Made by a program: the position numbers and the translations under genes
Notes under the pieces: generated by a model
Told to the model about the DNA's origin: nothing
Databases searched by the model: none
Seen by the model: only the letters and a program-made list of their open reading frames with translations
Source of the DNA: Actinomycetota bacterium
GTDB lineage: Bacteria; Actinomycetota; Thermoleophilia; RBG-16-64-13
NCBI GenBank assembly: GCA_018830645.1
Contig: JAHJSA010000050.1
Span: 62,001 to 126,000, forward strand
Direction of reading: 5' to 3'
DNA: 64,000 nt
Shown here: positions 22,775 through 40,214 of the stretch, one piece after another
How the letters are laid out: each line of letters starts with the position of its first letter
Position numbering within the stretch: the first letter of the stretch is position 1

Positions 22775-22947
22775 TGTTGAGCTCGACCTTGTGCGTGATC
22801 CGCTCAAACTTGAGCCAACACATTTTCCTTGGGAGGCACGTTCTCCCGGCCGGCCCAGCTCGCCGGAGACAGTCGCCCACCTGCATACGCAGGTTCAAGG
22901 GAGATGCGGACACGGCAAGGTGGAGCACTTCTTTTCTCCGGAGGAAC

Positions 22948-26234: not shown

Positions 26235-27056
26235 GTGGACATCGGCTCCGCTCACGTGAATACCGAACCGGTGCCTCTTCAGGCCCGCACGCCGAACGCC
26301 CCCGAGAAGGAGCTGCTCTGGCGCATCCATCGCGAGGCTGATGCGGTGGCGCGCGAGGAGTTGATCACGCGCTACCTGCCGCTCGTGCGAAGTCTCGCCC
26401 GGCGATTCTCTTCGCGGGGCCAGCCGGTGGAAGACCTCATCCAGGTGGGGTCCATAGGTTTGATCAAGGCGATCGATCGCTTCGACATCGAGCGAGGCGT
26501 GGAGCTTTCTACCTACGCGACTCCCACCATCCTCGGTGAGATCAAGCGCTACTTTCGCGACAAGGGCTGGGCGGTCAAAGTGCCGCGCGCCCTTCAGGAT
26601 CTGAACATCCGCCTCAACCGGATCATCGAGCAGCTCACGGTGGAACTCAATCGTTCTCCCACCATCGCCGAACTCGCTGAGGCGTGCGACGTGTCGGAGG
26701 AGGAGGTACTCGAAGCCCTCGAAAGCGGCAGGGCCTACAACTCCCTGTCTCTGTTCTCGAGTGGATCACCCGACGACGAGGATTCACTCGAGCTGCTCGA
26801 CTACCTCGGTCGCGAGGACGACGAGTACAAGTTGGTCGAGCAGCGCAGGTACCTGGCGCCCGCGATGGGACGGCTGGATGAACGAGAGCGCCTCATCCTC
26901 CACCTGCGGTTCTTCGAGGGGATGACCCAGACCCAGATCGCAACCCGTGTGGGCATCTCCCAGATGCACGTCTCCAGACTGATCCGCAAGTCGATCGAAG
27001 TCCTGCGACAACACATGGTCGATCAGGACGGTGTCCCACCCGACCCGTCCCGCTGA
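26235..27056 (+). CDS. sigF: SigB/SigF-type alternative sigma factor
   Basis: 273 residues, GTG start. Region 2 (LPLVRSLARRF, EDLIQVGSIGLIKAIDRFDIERGVELSTYATPTILGEIKRYFRDKGW), region 3 (VKVPRALQDLNIRLNRIIEQLTVELNRSPTIAELAEACDV) and region 4 (RLDERERLILHLRFFEGMTQTQIATRVGISQMHVSRLIRKSIEVL) are all complete. This is the group 3 general-stress/forespore type. Gene order after an RsbW-like protein supports control by partner switching, but no RsbV-like antagonist lies here. Its C-terminal tail overlaps the track's long alaS ORF. Confidence 0.92.
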   Translation: MDIGSAHVNTEPVPLQARTPNAPEKELLWRIHREADAVAREELITRYLPLVRSLARRFSSRGQPVEDLIQVGSIGLIKAIDRFDIERGVELSTYATPTILGEIKRYFRDKGWAVKVPRALQDLNIRLNRIIEQLTVELNRSPTIAELAEACDVSEEEVLEALESGRAYNSLSLFSSGSPDDEDSLELLDYLGREDDEYKLVEQRRYLAPAMGRLDERERLILHLRFFEGMTQTQIATRVGISQMHVSRLIRKSIEVLRQHMVDQDGVPPDPSR

Positions 27057-31317: not shown

Positions 31318-32163
31318 TTGGAAGTGAAGGCGAGCACAGGGGTAGTCTGCATTCTTGGTCATCCGGTACGCCATTCACGATCGCCGGCGATGCACAACGC
31401 CGCCTTCGCAGAAGTAGGCCTTGACCTGGTCTACGTAGCCTTTGATGTATGCGAAACAGACCTTCCTTCCGCCATCGACGGCCTCCGCAGCCTGGGGTTC
31501 GTAGGCGCCAATATCACGCTACCTCACAAGGAGAGTGTGGTCCCACTGCTCGACGAGACCGACGAACTCGCCACCACGATCGGCGCCGTGAACACCATAG
31601 TGGTTGATCGAGGGCGTCTGCGCGGCTACAACACAGACGCGCAGGGCTTCCTGCGCGCGCTGGAGCGGGGGTGGGGGAGAGGGCCGGACGGCGCGCGCTG
31701 CCTCGTGCTGGGGGCCGGCGGAGCGGCGCGCGCGATCGTCGCGGCGCTCGTGCACGCACAGGCGGCTGAGGTCGTGGTGCATAATCGCACCGCGGCGCGC
31801 GCCCGCAGACTCTGCGCCGACGCGGCCACATGGTCCAGCGTTCCGGTGCGCGCGATCGAGCCCGAGGAGCTCGGCCGTGTCGCCGCGCGCGCCGATTTGA
31901 TCGTAAACGCCACGTCCGTGGGCCTCGACCGTACGTTCAAGGCAATACCACTTCCTGTCGATATGGTGAAGGATAGCCACGTTGTGATGGACGTCGTGTA
32001 TTCTGATTCGATGACTCCGCTGTTGGAAGCCGCCCACGGGAGGGGTGCGACAGTGATCGAAGGCACAGAGATGCTGGTGCAACAAGCTTGCCTCGCCTAC
32101 GAACTGTGGACAGGGAGGATTGCTCCCGTGCATCTGTTCCGCAATAAGGCTTCCAGCGACTGA
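31318..32163 (+). CDS. aroE: Shikimate dehydrogenase
   Basis: 281 residues, TTG start. LGHPVRHSRSPAMHNAAF is the substrate loop; the catalytic Lys is in ANITLPHKESVVPLLDE, the Asp in YNTDAQGFLRAL, and the NADP-binding GAGGAARAIVAAL. It reduces 3-dehydroshikimate in the chorismate pathway. Other aro genes are on the opposite strand at 52-56 kb. Its stop overlaps the pilB ATG (TGATG), so it is co-transcribed with the pilus ATPases. Confidence 0.95.
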   Translation: MEVKASTGVVCILGHPVRHSRSPAMHNAAFAEVGLDLVYVAFDVCETDLPSAIDGLRSLGFVGANITLPHKESVVPLLDETDELATTIGAVNTIVVDRGRLRGYNTDAQGFLRALERGWGRGPDGARCLVLGAGGAARAIVAALVHAQAAEVVVHNRTAARARRLCADAATWSSVPVRAIEPEELGRVAARADLIVNATSVGLDRTFKAIPLPVDMVKDSHVVMDVVYSDSMTPLLEAAHGRGATVIEGTEMLVQQACLAYELWTGRIAPVHLFRNKASSD

Positions 32164-33884
32164 TGCAGCTGCCGAGCGAAGAGATACCCCTGCGCAAGCC
32201 GGGGAAGAAGCGCACCGGCGAGATTCTCGTAGAGATGGGGCTACTCACACCCCAGCAGCTCGAAGAGGCGCTCGAGGAACAGAAGACCTCGCATCTGCGC
32301 ATCGGCGAAGTACTTGTAGCGAAGGGGTGGATCAAGCACACCGAGCTGACCGAGGCCCTTGCCCGTCGTCTGGGTGTGCGGTATCTCGATCTCTCGACCA
32401 CCAAGGTCGAGCATGCCGCGGCGAACCTGATCACCGAGAAGGACGCCAGGCGCTACGCGGCGATCCCCGTGTCGTACCTCAACGACCACACCTTGCTGGT
32501 GGCCATGGTCGATCCGGCCAACATCTTCGCGATCGACGACCTGCGTATCCTCACCGGGTGCGACGTCGAGCCGGCTATCGCCACCGAGGAAGACATCTTC
32601 GGGCAGATCTCAAAGCTACGGAGTCTCGAGGACAAGGTCGGCGCGAACCTCGAGGAGCAAGTCGAATCGACCGAACTCAGCCCCAACGAAGTGCGCGACA
32701 TCAGGGAGCAGATCGACGAAGCTCCCATCGTCAAGTTGGTCAACAGCATCATGGCGCAGGCAGCTGAGGACGGCGCGTCCGACATCCACTTTGAGCCTCA
32801 GGCCAAAGAGATGGTCATCCGCTTCCGCAACGACGGGGTGCTTCACGAGGTCATGTCGGTGCCCCGGCGCATGCAATCCGGAGTGCTCTCGCGCATCAAG
32901 ATCATGGCCGACCTCGACATCGCCGAGCGCCGCGTGCCTCAGGACGGTCGTATCGGCCTCATGGTCGGAGGGAAGCCCATCGACATGCGGGTGGCCTCGC
33001 TGCCGACCGTGTACGGTGAGAAGATAGTGATGCGGCTTCTGGATAGGTCCAACGTCATGCTTCGTCTGCAGGACCTCGGTTTCTCGGAGAAGAGCCTTGC
33101 CCGATTCCGCAAGTCTTTCACGAAGCCGTATGGAGCGATGCTGGTAACGGGTCCGACGGGTTCGGGCAAGTCCACAACGCTGTATGCTACGTTGAACATA
33201 CTGAACACGCCGGAGAAGAACATCATCACTGTCGAGGACCCTGTGGAGTACCGATTGACCGGCATCAACCAGGTGCAGGCGAATCTGCGGGCGGGGCTGA
33301 CCTTCCCTGTCGCCCTCAAGTCGATCCTGCGCTGCGACCCGGACATCGTCATGATCGGCGAGATCCGGGACAAGGAGACCGCTCAGATAGCCGTGGAGTC
33401 CGCTCTGACCGGTCACCTGGTCCTTTCGACTCTGCACACCAACGACGCTCCGGGCGCCCTGTCCCGTCTCACCGAGATGGGCATCGAGCCGTTCCTCACA
33501 GCTTCCGCCGTCGATTGCGTTCTCGCTCAGCGCCTCGCACGCAAGTTGTGTGAAGGGTGCAAGGAACCCTACAAGCCCACGCAGGAGATGCTCCGTCGGA
33601 ACGACTTCCCCATGGAGGCCTGCGAAGACTGGGAGAACGTCACCCTCTACAAGCCGGTAGGATGTCCGCGCTGCAACGGAACCGGCTACAAGGGGCGCCT
33701 CGGCATCTACGAGGTCATGCTGGTCACCGAGGCCATCGAGAGACTCACTGTCGAAAGGAAGAGCGCGGACGAGATCAGTCGTGTCGCGCAGGCAGAGGGG
33801 ATGAAGAGCCTACGGGAGGACGGTATCGAGAAAGTGCTGCAGGGCCGTACAGCGATCGAGGAGATCGCCCGTGTCATTGTGTGA
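32163..33884 (+). CDS. pilB: Type IV pilus assembly ATPase PilB
   Basis: 573 residues. N-terminal MshEN domain (KRTGEILVEMGLLTPQQLEEAL, LGVRYLDLSTTKVE), a fold known in other proteins to bind c-di-GMP. Then the GspE/PilB motor: DGASDIHFEPQ, Walker A GPTGSGKSTTLYATL, Asp box, Walker B DIVMIGEIRDKETAQIA, His box STLHTNDAPGALSR. The zinc tetracysteine (CEGC, CPRC) typical of PilB is present. It powers pilin polymerisation. No pilin gene lies in the window. Confidence 0.95.
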   Translation: MQLPSEEIPLRKPGKKRTGEILVEMGLLTPQQLEEALEEQKTSHLRIGEVLVAKGWIKHTELTEALARRLGVRYLDLSTTKVEHAAANLITEKDARRYAAIPVSYLNDHTLLVAMVDPANIFAIDDLRILTGCDVEPAIATEEDIFGQISKLRSLEDKVGANLEEQVESTELSPNEVRDIREQIDEAPIVKLVNSIMAQAAEDGASDIHFEPQAKEMVIRFRNDGVLHEVMSVPRRMQSGVLSRIKIMADLDIAERRVPQDGRIGLMVGGKPIDMRVASLPTVYGEKIVMRLLDRSNVMLRLQDLGFSEKSLARFRKSFTKPYGAMLVTGPTGSGKSTTLYATLNILNTPEKNIITVEDPVEYRLTGINQVQANLRAGLTFPVALKSILRCDPDIVMIGEIRDKETAQIAVESALTGHLVLSTLHTNDAPGALSRLTEMGIEPFLTASAVDCVLAQRLARKLCEGCKEPYKPTQEMLRRNDFPMEACEDWENVTLYKPVGCPRCNGTGYKGRLGIYEVMLVTEAIERLTVERKSADEISRVAQAEGMKSLREDGIEKVLQGRTAIEEIARVIV

Positions 33885-33955
33885 GCAGACGAGCCTCGGG
33901 GTCCCAGGGCAAGGCCTGCTCTTGATCTACCTGGCCCAGCGTCATGGAGGTGACC

Positions 33956-35020
33956 GTGGAACTCGTTGAGATCCTGAAGGAGGTGCTCGAGAGGGGAGCC
34001 TCCGACCTCCACATCTCAGTGGGGGTGCCACCGACTCTTAGGGTCAGCGGCAAGCTCGTGCATCTCGATGCCCCGAGGGTCACCACGAATGACGCGCGTT
34101 CCCTCATTTACAGCATCCTTACGCAGGATCAGCGCCAAAAACTCGAGAACGACTGGGAGCTTGACTTCTCGTACTCCGTGCCCGGCCGAGCCCGGTTCCG
34201 GGTCAACGCGTATTTCCAGCGCAACAGCCTCGGAGCCGCTTTCCGTCTCATCCCGGTGGACATCAAGTCCATCGACGAGCTGGGGTTGCCGCCGATTCTG
34301 CACGAACTAGCGCGCAAGCCACGCGGTTTCGTACTCGTCACTGGGCCCACGGGCTCGGGCAAGTCCACGACCCTGGCAGCCATGATTGACGCGATCAACA
34401 AGGAGCGTGACGATCACATCATGACCATCGAGGATCCGATCGAGTTCCTTCACCGCCACCAGAACTGCATCGTGAACCAACGAGAGGTGGGAACCGACAC
34501 GAAGTCCTTCGCCAAGGCCCTGAAGTCTGTGCTCCGGCAAGACCCCGACATCATCCTTGTGGGGGAGCTCCGCGATCTCGAGACGATCACGACCGCTCTG
34601 ACCGCCGCGGAGACGGGGCATCTGGTCTTCGCGACACTTCACACTCAAGACGCGCCTCAGACCATCGATCGCCTCATAGACGTGTTCCCGCCGCATCAGC
34701 AAGAACAGATACGTGTGCAGATCGCTGCGACCATCCAGGGCATCGTCACGCAGCAATTGCTTGAGCGGCGCGACGGCAAGGGCCGGATCGCCGCCTGCGA
34801 GGTCTTGATCCCGACGCCTGCGGTTCGGAACCTCATCAGGGAGGGGAAGACGCATCAGATCTACACCACCATGCAGACGGGCACCAAGCACGGCATGCAG
34901 ACCATGGACTCCACCTTGGCCGACCTTGTGAGGCGAGGCCTGATCACGAAGGAACTGGCTGATCGTCGATCGTCGAATCCGGAAGACCTCAAACGACTCC
35001 TCGTATCTGGGGCGGCGTGA
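33956..35020 (+). CDS. pilT: Type IV pilus retraction ATPase PilT
   Basis: 354 residues from the GTG; the upstream in-frame ATG at 33944 reads ATGGAGGTGACC and its GGAGG is a well-spaced ribosome site for the GTG, so GTG is preferred. GASDLHISVGVPPTLR, Walker A GPTGSGKSTTLAAMI, RQDPDIILVGELRDLETI, ATLHTQDAPQTIDRLID, and the PilT-specific AVRNLIREGKTHQI. Retraction of the fibre gives twitching or tight adhesion. It lies 71 bases after pilB. Confidence 0.95.
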   Translation: MELVEILKEVLERGASDLHISVGVPPTLRVSGKLVHLDAPRVTTNDARSLIYSILTQDQRQKLENDWELDFSYSVPGRARFRVNAYFQRNSLGAAFRLIPVDIKSIDELGLPPILHELARKPRGFVLVTGPTGSGKSTTLAAMIDAINKERDDHIMTIEDPIEFLHRHQNCIVNQREVGTDTKSFAKALKSVLRQDPDIILVGELRDLETITTALTAAETGHLVFATLHTQDAPQTIDRLIDVFPPHQQEQIRVQIAATIQGIVTQQLLERRDGKGRIAACEVLIPTPAVRNLIREGKTHQIYTTMQTGTKHGMQTMDSTLADLVRRGLITKELADRRSSNPEDLKRLLVSGAA

Positions 35021-35073: not shown

Positions 35074-36288
35074 ATGACCACCTTCACATACACGGCTAAG
35101 CCATCGGGCGGCAGCCTGATGGACGGCGAGATACAGGGGGATTCGAAAGCCGCGGTGGCCGCCGAGCTCAGGCGGCGCGGCCTAACCGTGATGTCCCTCG
35201 AGGAGAAGAAGGGCCTACCCAACATCGGCGAGCTGCTCGAGGGCATGAGCAGTATCAAGCTCCGCGACAAGGTCATCTTCTCTCGACAGTTCGCCACCAT
35301 GATCAACGCGGGTCTTGCGCTGCTCCGGGCGCTTTTTATCCTGGAAGAGCAGACGGAGAACCCGCGCCTCCAGAAGATCATCAAGGCCGTCCGCCAGGAT
35401 GTCGAGGCGGGTATGCCCCTCTCGGACTCCTTCGAGAAGCACCCGATCGCGTTCGACAGACTCTACGTCAGTATGGTCCGGGCCGGCGAAGTCGGAGGGG
35501 TACTCGACCTGACCCTCGAACGCCTAGCGACCCAACTCGAGAAAGACGACAGCCTCCGAAGATCGGTCAAGTCGGCCATGACGTACCCGATCCTCATCTT
35601 CGTCTTCGCGATCGTCGTGCTGTTCGCGCTCATCCTCTTCGTGATACCTGTGTTCGCCGGCATGTACGACGGATTGGGCGGTCAATTGCCGCTTCTCACC
35701 CGGATCATGGTGGGAGCAAGTGACTTTATGCGCTCGTTCTGGTTTGTCGTGTTCCCAGCCGCCTTCCTGCTCTTCTACGGGCTCAAGCGGCTCAAGAACA
35801 CCAAGACGGGCACCGAGACCTGGGACAAGATCAAGCTGCGCCTGCCCATGAAGCTGGGCCCGATCGTGCAGAAGATCGCCGTTTCCCGCTTCAGCCGGAC
35901 GCTGGCGACGCTGGTGAGTTCCGGTGTGCCGATCCTGCAGGCCATCGACATCACGGGAAAGACCTCGGGCAACACGGTCATAGAGTACGCGATGGAAGCG
36001 GTCAGAGAGAACATCAAGAGCGGAGATTCGATCTCACGCCCTCTCGAGAAGATAAAGGTGTTTCCACCGATGGTCACCCAGATGATCGCCATCGGGGAGG
36101 AGACGGGTGCTCTCGACACCATGCTCCACAAGATCGCCGACTTCTACGAGGATGAGGTCGATTCCGCGGTCAAGTCACTCACGTCGATCATCGAGCCGAT
36201 CATGATGATCTTCATCGGTGGCATCGTGGGCCTCGTCGTCGTCTCCATGTACCTGCCGATCTTCAACCTGTTCCAGTTGGTGGAGTAG
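35074..36288 (+). CDS. pilC: Type IV pilus inner-membrane platform protein PilC
   Basis: 404 residues, ATG with AAGGAAGAG upstream. Two GspF domains: N-terminal FSRQFATMINAGLALLRALFIL, C-terminal FSRTLATLVSSGVPILQAIDIT. Three membrane segments: YPILIFVFAIVVLFALILFVIPVF, FWFVVFPAAFLLFYGL and a C-terminal MMIFIGGIVGLVVVSMYLPIF. It is the membrane partner of PilB/PilT. It ends 40 bases before the next sigma gene on the same strand. Confidence 0.94.
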   Translation: MTTFTYTAKPSGGSLMDGEIQGDSKAAVAAELRRRGLTVMSLEEKKGLPNIGELLEGMSSIKLRDKVIFSRQFATMINAGLALLRALFILEEQTENPRLQKIIKAVRQDVEAGMPLSDSFEKHPIAFDRLYVSMVRAGEVGGVLDLTLERLATQLEKDDSLRRSVKSAMTYPILIFVFAIVVLFALILFVIPVFAGMYDGLGGQLPLLTRIMVGASDFMRSFWFVVFPAAFLLFYGLKRLKNTKTGTETWDKIKLRLPMKLGPIVQKIAVSRFSRTLATLVSSGVPILQAIDITGKTSGNTVIEYAMEAVRENIKSGDSISRPLEKIKVFPPMVTQMIAIGEETGALDTMLHKIADFYEDEVDSAVKSLTSIIEPIMMIFIGGIVGLVVVSMYLPIFNLFQLVE

Positions 36289-36328: not shown

Positions 36329-37183
36329 ATGTACATGTCTGGAGCTTCCAACGTGGAAGACGACATACGGGCAGCAGCCGCTTCTCTCGGGGTATCGGAT
36401 GGGAGAGCCGGTGCGCAGCCCACCGGCAACCTGCCGCGAACGTTCCCGGCCAACGAAGCCCTGCTGGCCGCGTACCGGCGCGGAGATTTGGGCGCGCTCG
36501 ATCGACTTCTCGAGAAGAACGAACCGTTGTTGCATCATGCTCTGAAGAGGTTCTCGTATTCCTCAGAGCCTTACGAGGACCTGTTCCAGGTCGCGCGCCT
36601 CGGCTTCATGAAAGCGGTCCACAGGTACGACGAGACCCGAGGCACCGCTTTCTCCACGTACGCTATCGCCATCGCCGACGGCGAGATCCGCCATCATCTT
36701 CGAGACGCCCTGTTGGTACGTCAACCGCGCTGGGCGCGAGGTCTCTACGCGCACATCGTCGAGGCGCAGACGGAGTTCTTCCGGGAGCACGGCCGCTCAC
36801 CGACAATCGCGGAGGTGGCAGCCCTCGTCAACATCCAGGAGAAGGGCGTTCTGGAGATCATCAGAGCGCAGGCGAACCTCAACGTGCATTCCCTGGACGA
36901 GCCCTTCGACGAGCCCGATGGTGGCCGAGCGCCCGACAGGACCTTGGTCCGATCCATCCGCGCCGAATCGTTCTCGCTGCCCATCGAGGACCGTATCCTG
37001 TTGTACGAAGCCCTGGGCGTACTCTCCGACCTCCAGAAGAAGATTATATACCTGCTGTTCTTCCGTGATCTGACGCAGCAAGAGGTCGCAGACGAGATCG
37101 GCCTCACCCAGCGCGCCGTATCACGCGAAAACGTGAAGGCCATGGACCGGCTGAAGGCGATCCTGAGCAAACGCGTCTTCTGA
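36329..37183 (+). CDS. Divergent SigB-like sigma factor at the end of the pilus operon
   Basis: 284 residues from this ATG; an ATG at 36335 and a GTG at 36353 (GGAG 8 bases upstream) are alternatives, and the track start lies in pilC. Region 2 (EDLFQVARLGFMKAVHRYDETRGTAFSTYAIAIADGEIRHHLRDA) and region 4 (LSDLQKKIIYLLFFRDLTQQEVADEIGLTQRAVSRENVKAMDRL) are present. Region 2.4/3 (LLVRQPRWARGLYAHI) departs from SigB/SigF and lacks the FETYAITRIRGA / DWxPRS signature of WhiG/FliA. Position suggests it directs pilus genes or their regulators. The cognate anti-sigma is not adjacent. Confidence 0.85.
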   Translation: MYMSGASNVEDDIRAAAASLGVSDGRAGAQPTGNLPRTFPANEALLAAYRRGDLGALDRLLEKNEPLLHHALKRFSYSSEPYEDLFQVARLGFMKAVHRYDETRGTAFSTYAIAIADGEIRHHLRDALLVRQPRWARGLYAHIVEAQTEFFREHGRSPTIAEVAALVNIQEKGVLEIIRAQANLNVHSLDEPFDEPDGGRAPDRTLVRSIRAESFSLPIEDRILLYEALGVLSDLQKKIIYLLFFRDLTQQEVADEIGLTQRAVSRENVKAMDRLKAILSKRVF

Positions 37184-37199
37184 CACCGCCTCGGCAGTC

Positions 37200-37238
37200 C
37201 TGGGCGACGATCCCTCGCAGGATTCCCCTACGTCCCAG
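37200..37238. terminator. Possible bidirectional terminator between converging genes
   Basis: CTGGG...CCCAG with inner CGACG/CGT and GATCC/GGATT pairings forms a long imperfect hairpin. It lies in the 117-base gap between the sigma gene (+) and apt (-). The rest of the gap is AT-rich (ATAATGTATGTTATGTAAAG), unusual for this genome. Confidence 0.4.
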
Positions 37239-37300
37239 CCGCTCTTCCACGCACGATAATGTATGTTATGTAAAGAAGCCACCGTAAAGCGGCCTTCACG

Positions 37301-37813
37301 TCAGTACCGGATCAGACTGAAGACGTCGTAGCCCTCGAGGCGGTCACGCCCCTTCAGGAACTCCAACTCGATGACAAAAGCCAGGCCGACCACTATGCCG
37401 CCTGACTTCTCCACCAGCTCGATCTTCGCTCTCGCGGTTCCTCCTGTGGCAAGAAGGTCATCGTGGATGATGACGCGCTGGCCGGGCGCTATCGCGTCCA
37501 CATGCATTTCGAGGCAGTCTACGCCGTACTCCAGGTCGTAGTCGGCGCGGGCCACGTCCCAGGGCAGCTTTCCCGGCTTTCGCGCCGCCGCGAAGCCAGC
37601 CCCCACCGCGTAGGCAAGTGCCGCGCCGAGGATGAACCCTCTGGCCTCCGCACCCAAGATCACATCAGGGGTCCGCTCCTTGCTGAAATCAGCGAGTCGC
37701 TCCACCGTATAGCGAAGCGCCTCAGCGTCTTGAAGGAGCGGCATTATGTCCTTGAAGATGATGCCCGCTTTCGGGAAATCGGGCACGTCTCGGATGAAGG
37801 TGCTTAAATCCAT
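37301..37813 (-). CDS. apt: Adenine phosphoribosyltransferase
   Basis: 170 residues, ATG with GAGGAG upstream. N-terminus STFIRDVPDFPKAGIIFKDIMPLL and the PRPP loop region RVIIHDDLLATGGTARA are diagnostic. It salvages adenine to AMP. It is the last gene of the rsiG-garA-ftsR operon, 26 bases after ftsR. In many Gram-positives apt sits near rel or secDF instead, so this placement is a local arrangement. Confidence 0.95.
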   Translation of the reverse strand: MDLSTFIRDVPDFPKAGIIFKDIMPLLQDAEALRYTVERLADFSKERTPDVILGAEARGFILGAALAYAVGAGFAAARKPGKLPWDVARADYDLEYGVDCLEMHVDAIAPGQRVIIHDDLLATGGTARAKIELVEKSGGIVVGLAFVIELEFLKGRDRLEGYDVFSLIRY

Positions 37814-37839
37814 GGGGCTCCTCGGGTCATCTTGGGAGG

Positions 37840-38592
37840 TCAGCCGGCAAGCCGCGAGAGTTCTCGGTACAGGAGCAGGTCGAGCAGACGAGCCATGAGC
37901 GAGCCGAGATCGGCCAGCGCCCGCGTCCCTTCCTCTCTCCTGTCCTTGTTCGCCGATCTCATCGCCGGCGCCACCACTTGTGCCAGCAACGCGGCCTCAC
38001 GTTCCGCCGACGAACTGAGGACACGCAGATTGCGAGGCTCGACCCCATGGCGGCTCAAGAGGTCGCAGATGCGCACCACCTCCAGGTCTGGTTCCGAGAG
38101 GCGCGTTTCGGTCATCGGCGTGGCTGCATCGAAGAGATGGAACTCGGCAAGAGCACGAAGAAACGACTCCGAAACTCCGGTGATGCTCAACGCCTGGTCC
38201 CACGTGTACGCGGGTACTCCTCGCTTGAGGCCGCGAGGCGTGTCGAAGGGTCCGGAGGGTGCCAAGGGTCGGCCGACCGCTGAAGCGGTGCCACGCTCGA
38301 GGCGCTCTTTGATCACATCGAGGGGCAAGAACTCGTCCCGCTGAAGAGTCAGGATAGTGCGCAGCGTTCGGACAGCCGCCTGGCCGTACTTTCGGTAGCC
38401 CCCCGGAGTGCGCTCCGGCGACACGAGGCCTCGATCCTCCAGATAACGGATCTTGCTGATGGTCAGGTCGGGGAACTCCCCGCGGAGGCGTGCCACCACT
38501 CCGCCGATCGCCAAGAGGGTCTCGGCCTGTCCCTCGAGAGCCCCCGCAGTCTCTCCGCCGGCCGTATCCTGACGCTGCGGGCGATCAGTCAT
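37840..38592 (-). CDS. ftsR: MerR-family regulator, FtsR (Rv1828) type
   Basis: 250 residues. After a Gly/Glu-rich N-terminus of about 28 residues the MerR HTH reads IGGVVARLRGEFPDLTISKIRYLEDRGLVSPERTPGGYRKY, with RTILTLQRDEFLPLDVIKERLE following. The C-terminal half (RICDLLSRHGVEPRNLRVLSSSAEREAALLAQVVAP) matches the mycobacterial Rv1828/FtsR pattern, where the protein activates ftsZ in corynebacteria. The position right after a GarA-type FHA gene is the same as in mycobacteria. DNA targets cannot be predicted here. Confidence 0.88.
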   Translation of the reverse strand: MTDRPQRQDTAGGETAGALEGQAETLLAIGGVVARLRGEFPDLTISKIRYLEDRGLVSPERTPGGYRKYGQAAVRTLRTILTLQRDEFLPLDVIKERLERGTASAVGRPLAPSGPFDTPRGLKRGVPAYTWDQALSITGVSESFLRALAEFHLFDAATPMTETRLSEPDLEVVRICDLLSRHGVEPRNLRVLSSSAEREAALLAQVVAPAMRSANKDRREEGTRALADLGSLMARLLDLLLYRELSRLAG

Positions 38593-39059
38593 CAGTCGAT
38601 CGGTTCCAGAAACGCCAGTTTGAACTTACCGATCTGCAGTTCATCGCCGTCGGCGAGGTGCTGGCGCTCGACTCTGCCCCGGTTGACATAGGTGCCGTTC
38701 AGGCTGTTCAGATCTTCGACCGCGTACCCGGTAGCATCGCGCACGACGCGGGCGTGATGACGAGAAACAGTGACATCGTCGAGGAACAGGTGGCTCTCCG
38801 GGTTGCGGCCGATGGTCAGGAGGTCGCTATCGAGGGGGATCTGCTCTCCCTCGCTACCCCCGCCCGCTCTGATCAGAAGAACAGGGTAGCGGCTCACCCC
38901 TCCGGAGACATCTGGGCCGGCTCCTGCCTCATCCCCATCGAGGGGCGCATACGTGACGGTGGTCTCGGCGAGGTCGGCGATGACCAAGCGGCTGCCACAA
39001 CGACTACAGAAGTTGGCGTCTCCGCTGTTCTCGAAGGAGCACTTGGCGCACGAGGTCAT
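38592..39059 (-). CDS. garA: FHA-domain regulator of the GarA/OdhI family with N-terminal zinc ribbon
   Basis: 155 residues. A two-CxxC zinc ribbon occupies residues 4-21 (CAKC, CSRC). Residues 32-37 are ETTVTY, aligned with the ETT phosphorylation motif of GarA/OdhI. The FHA domain (LTIGRNPESHLFLDDVTVSR, SLNGTYVN, DGDELQIGKFKLAFL) is close to mycobacterial GarA. In that family the unphosphorylated protein inhibits 2-oxoglutarate dehydrogenase and modulates glutamate enzymes; Thr phosphorylation by PknG/PknB makes the FHA bind its own tail. Whether kinases exist here is unknown. Overlaps both neighbours by 1-4 bases. Confidence 0.88.
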   Translation of the reverse strand: MTSCAKCSFENSGDANFCSRCGSRLVIADLAETTVTYAPLDGDEAGAGPDVSGGVSRYPVLLIRAGGGSEGEQIPLDSDLLTIGRNPESHLFLDDVTVSRHHARVVRDATGYAVEDLNSLNGTYVNRGRVERQHLADGDELQIGKFKLAFLEPID

Positions 39060-39346
39060 GCCTCGTCCTCTTCTGTGTGGGCGAGCTGCCTCTGGTAGTG
39101 GGTGAATTCGGCCGCCATCTGATCCTCGATGCCTCGCAGTACTTCCGGGCTCTCCAGGATATGCGCGCGGTCCTCAGCATCTGTGTTGTTGATAATGTAT
39201 GGGTCGGCCATCACCTGATCGAACCTCCGACCCTTGCTCAGTTCCGTCACGATGTACCGGAGGATCCTCTCCTCGCGCACACCGACGGAGAGTTCGTGGA
39301 AGAGCCTCTCCATACCCCTTACGACTCGGTCGATCCTATCCCCCAT
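39056..39346 (-). CDS. Conserved-looking hypothetical protein between rsiG and garA
   Basis: 96 residues, ATG with GGAGGTGG 5 bases upstream, overlapping the garA start by 4 bases. Mostly helical and charged: RVVRGMERLFHELSVGVREERILRYIVTELSKGRRFDQVMADPYIINNT, ending HYQRQLAHTEEDEA. No membrane segment, signal peptide or metal motif. I do not recognise the family. Tight coupling between an anti-sigma gene and garA suggests a cytosolic regulatory or adaptor role, but that is inference from position only. Confidence 0.7.
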   Translation of the reverse strand: MGDRIDRVVRGMERLFHELSVGVREERILRYIVTELSKGRRFDQVMADPYIINNTDAEDRAHILESPEVLRGIEDQMAAEFTHYQRQLAHTEEDEA

Positions 39347-39361
39347 GGGACCACCTCCGCC

Positions 39362-39640
39362 TCAGAGCTCTTCTTCGGCCAACCCGCGGGAGCTGAGGAT
39401 GCTGCTGAGCTTCTCGACGTCGCCCTCGACGAAGAGACTCTTGCCGCTCGAATGCTTGTCTCTCAGCCGACGAACCATCTCTGCGCGAAGGATGTCGAGC
39501 TTCGCGTGGATGATCCGGCGGGTCTTGGAGACCTCTCGCTCCTCTGCCGCCAGTTGCTCGGCGAGTACCTTGATCTCGTCATCGCCCTTCGACTGTATGT
39601 CGATGAGCAGTTCGAACGATGAGGTGTCGTAGTCGTTCAT
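39362..39640 (-). CDS. rsiG: RsiG-family anti-sigma factor with a single c-di-GMP-binding-type motif
   Basis: 92 residues from the ATG at 39640; the track's start at 39676 falls on the predicted -35. All-helical. Residues 34-49 read EREVSKTRRIIHAKLD, fitting the RsiG c-di-GMP motif E(X)3S(X)2R(X)3Q(X)3D at E34, S38, R41 and D49, with His45 in place of Gln. The continuation LDILRAEMVRRL matches RsiG-like aerial-mycelium-formation proteins. Only one motif is present, as in basal actinobacteria, where RsiG dimerises around two c-di-GMP and holds WhiG-type sigma. First gene of its operon. Confidence 0.78.
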   Translation of the reverse strand: MNDYDTSSFELLIDIQSKGDDEIKVLAEQLAAEEREVSKTRRIIHAKLDILRAEMVRRLRDKHSSGKSLFVEGDVEKLSSILSSRGLAEEEL

Positions 39641-39647
39641 GGCTTCT

Positions 39648-39676
39648 AGTATACCCCCGTGGCTACGAACCATCAA
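39648..39676 (-). promoter_or_regulatory. Promoter of the rsiG-garA-ftsR-apt operon; predicted leaderless start
   Basis: Read on the minus strand: TTGATG, exactly 17 bases, TATACT, then 7 bases to the rsiG ATG. Transcription should start at the ATG itself, and no ribosome site exists. The same spacing is seen at recJ. Confidence 0.68.
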
Positions 39677-39784: not shown

Positions 39785-40171
39785 TCACTCGTCCTGCTCT
39801 GCGAGGATCTGCTCGTATTCCTCGGCCGACATGAGTTCCTCGAGTTCGCTCGGGTCGCTCAGCTTGATCTTGATGAGCCAACCGTCTTCGTAGGGGCTCT
39901 CGTTGATCAACTCGGGAGCATCCACGACTTCCTCGTTAGTCTCGACGATCGTGCCGCTCAGCGGAGCGTAGACATCGGTCACCGCCTTCACCGATTCGAT
40001 CTCGGCATACGTAGTACCGGCGGCGACTTCCGTGCCTACCTCGGGAAGCTCGATGTAGACGATGTCGCCGAGGGCCTCCTGGGCGTAATCGGTCACACCG
40101 AGTACAGCGATGTCACCCTCGATACGGGCCCAATCATGCTCCTTGTGGTACTTGAGGTTCTTGGGGTTCAC
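39785..40171 (-). CDS. gcvH: Glycine cleavage system H protein
   Basis: 128 residues from a GTG with AAAGGAG upstream; the track adds 12 unsupported residues. LKYHKEHDWARIEGDIAVLGVTDYAQEALGDIVYIELPEVG, and the lipoyl-lysine in EIESVKAVTDVYAP, with INESPYEDGWLIKIKL near the end. It carries the aminomethyl group among P, L and T proteins, none of which are in the window. A gcvH next to garA/ftsR is the mycobacterial order; here it has its own promoter and terminator. Confidence 0.95.
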   Translation of the reverse strand: MNPKNLKYHKEHDWARIEGDIAVLGVTDYAQEALGDIVYIELPEVGTEVAAGTTYAEIESVKAVTDVYAPLSGTIVETNEEVVDAPELINESPYEDGWLIKIKLSDPSELEELMSAEEYEQILAEQDE

Positions 40172-40205
40172 TAGCGCTCCTTTCTCGCCAAGCGTGGCTG
40201 GCCAC

Positions 40206-40214
40206 ATGATAGCA
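40206..40214 (-). promoter_or_regulatory. Possible extended -10 promoter of gcvH
   Basis: On the minus strand TGC-TATCAT, about 35 bases before the GTG. No clear -35. Confidence 0.42.

Follow-up and report, generated by a model that had tools for sequence, protein, structure and literature searches.

The only sigma/anti-sigma pair that has been described as a target of the second messenger cyclic di-GMP (c-di-GMP) is WhiG with its anti-sigma factor RsiG (PMC8325347). Here, we analyzed a 64,000-nucleotide stretch of an actinobacterial genome (contig C43:62001-126000; the whole stretch is referred to as the window), which encodes a single-motif RsiG of 92 residues close to the type IV pilus genes pilB, pilT and pilC and to a sigma factor gene, hereafter the 36329 sigma. 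The reading that we favor, and to which we assign a probability of roughly 0.7, is that c-di-GMP acts as a two-stage lock on the major pilin gene of this organism, at transcription initiation through RsiG and WhiG and at elongation through a riboswitch, and that the 36329 sigma provides a second input.

In Rubrobacter radiotolerans, which forms an (RsiG)2-(c-di-GMP)2-WhiG complex, RsiG is, as here, a small single-motif protein, WhiG is encoded in the genome, and flagellar-type promoters are found at genes for type IV pili and cyclases (PMC8325347). Schumacher et al. 2021 (PMC8325347) reported single-motif RsiG in Rubrobacteria and Thermoleophilia as well as, for Rubrobacter, a link of the RsiG-WhiG switch with type IV pili. 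The genome studied here differs from R. radiotolerans in that a c-di-GMP-I riboswitch and the putative promoter of a second sigma factor lie downstream of the WhiG-type pilin promoter, and in that a His takes the place of Gln in the c-di-GMP motif of RsiG; a riboswitch is not mentioned in the main text of PMC8325347. Bdellovibrio also combines a flagellar-type sigma regulon, that of FliA, with an abundant c-di-GMP riboswitch RNA (merRNA) in one phase of life (PMC3627812). Unlike the riboswitch described here, however, merRNA does not regulate a gene downstream of it and has been suggested to store c-di-GMP, and a c-di-GMP-sensing anti-sigma factor is not part of the system.

The RsiG of Streptomyces venezuelae belongs to the same family as the protein in the window, shares the c-di-GMP motif and partners a WhiG with the K57/G61/R62 contacts, as is likely here, but it is a twin-motif protein with both motifs in the monomer and governs sporulation, not pili. 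The pilin riboswitch of Clostridioides difficile is of class II and has an ON sign, and hence differs in aptamer class and sign from the one in this genome, for which an OFF sign is predicted; we know of no c-di-GMP-gated sigma factor at the C. difficile pilin promoter. The two have in common that a c-di-GMP riboswitch is placed in the leader of a type IV pilin (review PMC11477304).

A single-motif RsiG and its likely partner WhiG

The initial annotation of the window had proposed that the 92-residue protein (MNDYDTSS...EREVSKTRRIIHAKLDILRAE...) is a single-motif RsiG, and the comparisons with known families and structures confirm this identity. The protein matches the RsiG profile PF22802 with E=4e-13 and 49.3 bits (Pfam cut-off 27). 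RsiG structures in the PDB were also matched, with E about 2e-4 for the R. radiotolerans protein (7lq2-7lq4) and E 1.8e-6 for that of S. venezuelae (6pfj). The motif E(X)3S(X)2R(X)3[Q/H](X)3D occurs once, as E34, S38, R41, H45 and D49; the replacement of Gln by His45 had already been noted, and all five of the five positions are satisfied once His is permitted there. In the monomer model, the protein forms one long helix from residue 20 to 64 (mean predicted local distance difference test score of 91-96 over residues 21-60), as expected for a coiled-coil arm. The gene is present in a single copy in the genome. As single-motif RsiG of this actinobacterial branch was published in 2021, the protein adds one more member to an established family. 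Three other loci of the class, in which the single-motif form is found in most cases, carry paired adjacent RsiG-profile matches and are candidates for twin-motif RsiG (G020:C2:238730-239164, G088:C1:501647-502090 and G030:C78:11606-12046).

A true WhiG gene is located outside the window at C89:29479-30156, between rpsB and xerC. Its product passes the WhiG equivalog profile (354 bits, cut-off 343), matches S. venezuelae WhiG along its length (E 1e-87) and keeps the equivalents of the c-di-GMP contacts K57, G61 and R62. Among 99 genomes of the class, 84 encode both RsiG and WhiG, 10 encode neither and 5 encode only one of the two (Fisher p=1e-9, or p=0.0015 with one genus lacking both counted once; as the genomes are related, these count-based values are optimistic). 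These findings suggest that the partner of RsiG is likely the WhiG encoded elsewhere in the genome and not the neighboring 36329 sigma.

A WhiG-type promoter and a c-di-GMP riboswitch precede the major pilin gene

Within the window, no WhiG-type promoter was found within two mismatches at 15-bp spacing, and a WhiG promoter for pilB-pilT-pilC inside the window was rejected on this basis. The gated target would therefore be the pilin cluster outside the window. Pilin genes are located on the same contig about 36-43 kb before the window, and C43:22309 is the position of the major pilin. In relatives, the pilin clusters bear near-perfect TAAAG-N13/14-TGCCGATA sites 5' of one conserved pilin (GGFTLIELLVVIIIIAILAAIAIPTFLGQRQKAQDAAAKSL), and in this genome the corresponding promoter P1 (TCAAGT...TGCCGATAC, C43:21997-22023) lies upstream of the conserved pilin. 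Flagellar/WhiG-type promoters precede this same major pilin in at least ten genomes of the family, and a further one occurs about 25-117 bp upstream of a second PilT-like ATPase in this genome (C78:23094-23120) and in two relatives (G001 and G005). Genome-wide, a tight promoter pattern gave 220 matches compared to 10 with a reversed-pattern control. The mean was 2.46 matches per WhiG-bearing genome versus 0.5 in WhiG-less genomes, and eight WhiG-less genomes of one genus had none. The promoters make it very likely that c-di-GMP gates a sigma factor transcribing pilus genes; this part of the initial annotation stands, but the neighboring sigma factor as partner of RsiG is not supported.

In the leader of the major pilin gene (C43:21997-22309), P1 is followed by a second promoter (P2), a c-di-GMP-I riboswitch, an intrinsic terminator and then the pilin gene. 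The P1 boxes, P2 and the aptamer hardly differ from those of a congener, whereas the stretch from P1 to P2 is identical at 58 of 79 positions (73%). The pilin-leader aptamers of relatives match RF03167 and reach its own cut-off. In the pilin leaders the terminator is located 3' of the aptamer, and the sequence that its 5' arm overlaps is exactly complementary to GGCAAACC(AC) of the aptamer. An overlap between the terminator and a sequence of 8 nt or more that is complementary to the aptamer was seen in 19 cases. As the bound aptamer and the antiterminator would be mutually exclusive, c-di-GMP should favor termination, and from this pairing logic alone we infer an OFF sign for the riboswitch.

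The stacking of promoter and riboswitch extends across the class. c-di-GMP-I aptamers were detected in 59 of the 99 genomes, and 69 of the 118 aptamers have a WhiG-type promoter with at most two mismatches no more than 300 bp upstream (controls: 2 antisense, 4 shuffled). When at most one mismatch was allowed, 42 of the 118 had such a promoter, compared to no more than 4 for any of 40 permuted consensuses, and these pairs span 17 of 32 genera. WhiG is missing from only one riboswitch-bearing genome, which is 84% complete. The genome studied here has a second riboswitch (C11:110480-110558) with a WhiG-type promoter 44 bp upstream, placed before a predicted secreted protein. No paper that connects riboswitches to WhiG/RsiG promoters in this group came up in the open-access literature, the coverage of which is incomplete, so that this counts as weak evidence. 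We lean towards a class-wide double action on the same transcripts, in which RsiG would shut the WhiG promoter and the riboswitch would end the transcripts that escape, in 17 genera, and to which pilin leaders would add a second SigB/F-like sigma that is linked to pili, with a promoter starting at the riboswitch.

The RsiG-WhiG switch might be real and nevertheless have its main output at other genes, such as those for secreted surface proteins, gatCAB or cyclases, with the adjacency to pilus genes being incidental. Several aptamers, and many riboswitch/WhiG sites of the class, lie before predicted secreted proteins (signal sequences of the former judged by eye). A WhiG-type site before gatC-gatA is conserved in six genomes (this one, G000, at C75:13575-13601, as well as G001, G009, G012, G013 and G015), and one WhiG-type site of this genome precedes a GGDEF-linked open reading frame. 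In addition, the block of rsiG, FHA, ftsR and apt genes described below stands apart from pilus genes in the genomes of families f2, f4 and f5 that were examined (none within about 10 kb). However, no other target is as consistent in the family of the window as the major pilin, and 37 of the 118 aptamers directly precede a pilin, so we regard this explanation as unlikely.

The neighboring sigma factor probably acts through a second pilin promoter

The proposal that RsiG directly partners the neighboring 36329 sigma, and that this pair gates the pili by c-di-GMP, draws on the position of the sigma gene near rsiG, in a convergent synteny that is conserved in the family members having it, and on its link to pili, as it adjoins the pilin or riboswitch in three genomes (G019, G022 and G027). 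Its product, however, is SigB/F/G-like and not a WhiG: it scores 81 bits against FliA_WhiG (cut-off 189.6) and 177 bits against SigB/F/G, itself below the cut-off of 234, so that the assignment is to "SigB/F/G-like" only. His and Lys occupy the positions of the c-di-GMP-contacting Lys57 and Gly61 of WhiG. Among a panel of 31 genomes, the 36329 sigma is present in 12 and RsiG in 29; 17 of these 29 lack the sigma, whereas RsiG tracks WhiG. Furthermore, the adjacency of rsiG and pilB-pilT-pilC survives where the sigma is missing, and is hence not tied to it. We therefore rejected the 36329 sigma as partner of RsiG on family, contact residues and genome distribution, and consider a direct pair improbable.

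The earlier claim that this sigma factor belongs to the pili nevertheless seems right, although not via RsiG. The P2 element, TGTCTA-N14-GGG(T/C/A)A..T, was found in 21 pilin leaders with a spacer of always 14 bp, and resembles SigB/SigF promoters. In all 21 leaders it ends 7-9 bp before the aptamer, and transcription would thus start at the aptamer itself. Among the genomes scorable for both, P2 is present in 11 of the 12 that have the 36329 sigma and in 1 of the 8 that lack it (p=8e-4, a count-based value that is again optimistic). As the presence of P2 tracks that of the sigma, we propose that the two are paired and that the 36329 sigma probably reads P2.

A proposed two-stage c-di-GMP lock on the pilin gene

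In the mechanism that we propose, high c-di-GMP would arm RsiG, WhiG would be held and P1 would be off. High c-di-GMP would also cause the aptamer to fold, and transcription from either P1 or P2 would then terminate before the pilin. At low c-di-GMP, both locks would be open. The main pilus target of WhiG would be the major pilin, which the 36329 sigma may feed via P2 as a second input. If true, one messenger would control initiation of a gene through a protein and elongation of the same gene through an RNA; to our knowledge, no example of such a c-di-GMP double lock on one gene has been described. The class with the stacked arrangement is related to Thermoleophilia and consists mostly of uncultured actinobacteria; it would provide a large set of genomes for testing why both sensors are kept, be it for differing affinities, for a sharper switch or for suppressing leak from the second sigma. 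The pilus role of RsiG-WhiG would then also reach beyond Rubrobacter.

Several observations weigh against the two-stage lock. P1 is off-consensus in this genus (TCAAG, two mismatches), and the loose flagellar consensus is not enriched in this genome, with 30 sites compared to 33 control sites; a search of this genome with the exact consensus gave zero sites. Since the loose consensus does not exceed the control, single loose matches, some of which fall within genes or on contigs of foreign appearance (C103), were not used. Some riboswitches have no recognizable WhiG site, four family members (G002, G009, G011 and G015) have the WhiG promoter without a pilin riboswitch, and G003 has no long aptamer-terminator complement. 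A structural comparison of RsiG, made with the monomer only, returned weak helical matches (Z about 4) among which RsiG was not listed, and we took this as uninformative. The kinship among the genomes, noted above for the p-values, belongs here as well. Finally, PilB contains an MshEN domain. The pilus motor may thus bind c-di-GMP itself, and the messenger could act once more on assembled pili, possibly with the opposite sign.

That RsiG binds another ligand or is constitutively active, with the c-di-GMP response of the pilin leader coming from the riboswitch alone, is very improbable: position 45 is His and not Gln and c-di-GMP binding by the RsiG of the window is a prediction, but RsiG proteins throughout the class keep the motif, those of relatives usually have His at this position, and Gln has often been found replaced by His (PMC8325347). 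One such single-motif RsiG with His, that of C. woesei, binds c-di-GMP with a Kd of 25 uM and does not bind cyclic di-AMP (PMC8325347).

Genomic neighborhood of rsiG

As initially described, the pilus genes and the 36329 sigma gene lie on the strand opposite to rsiG, which is convergent with them at a distance of 2.2-7.2 kb (Table 1). Synteny was compared in 20 relatives from six families and one Coriobacteriia contig. The genes for the FHA-domain protein and FtsR adjoin rsiG wherever the contigs of the relatives extend far enough. A gene that, judged from its sequence, presumably encodes adenine phosphoribosyltransferase (apt) usually joins this block, and gcvH and p96 are also present in family f1. 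There, the block is convergent with pilB-pilT-pilC whether the 36329 sigma is present or absent; judged by gene order, the adjacency of rsiG and pilus genes is old in one family and independent of this sigma. A search of p96 against the Pfam and NCBIfam profiles gave no significant match; the protein could be an accessory of the RsiG switch.

Table 1 Features of the rsiG locus (window positions) and of the pilin leader (positions on contig C43)
Feature	Position	Strand	Basis
pilB, extension ATPase with MshEN domain	32163..33884	+	T2SSE and MshEN
pilT, retraction ATPase	33944..35020	+	TIGR01420, 508 bits
pilC, inner-membrane platform protein	35074..36288	+	PilC/GspF-type, best 436 bits, below curated cut-offs
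SigB/SigF/SigG-like sigma, downstream of pilC	36329..37183	+	SigBFG, 177 bits
Presumed apt, end of conserved RsiG-FHA-ftsR-apt block	37301..37813	-	synteny in several families and Coriobacteriia contig
FtsR (MerR-type regulator)	37840..38592	-	NF050798, 197 bits, cut-off 150
FHA-domain protein (GarA/OdhI-like) with N-terminal zinc ribbon	38592..39059	-	profile matches; synteny
p96, 96-aa protein between RsiG and FHA	39056..39346	-	synteny; conserved in family f1 and a single f6 genome
rsiG, single-motif RsiG, 92 aa	39362..39640 (including stop)	-	Pfam PF22802; PDB 7lq4/6pfj; predicted helix 20-64
gcvH, upstream same-strand neighbor of rsiG	39785..40207	-	Pfam GCV_H; synteny in family f1
P2, SigB/F-like promoter, pilin leader	C43:22102-22130
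c-di-GMP-I riboswitch, pilin leader	C43:22140-22214		RF01051, 54.7 bits, gathering score 35
Intrinsic terminator, pilin leader	C43:22223-22256		5' arm overlaps complement of the aptamer's GGCAAACCAC

The window contains a second gene of the sigma-70 family, of the SigB/F kind, directly before alaS (26235-27056, plus strand). A 6S RNA was found at 22778-22930 on the plus strand (Rfam RF00013, 65.5 bits).

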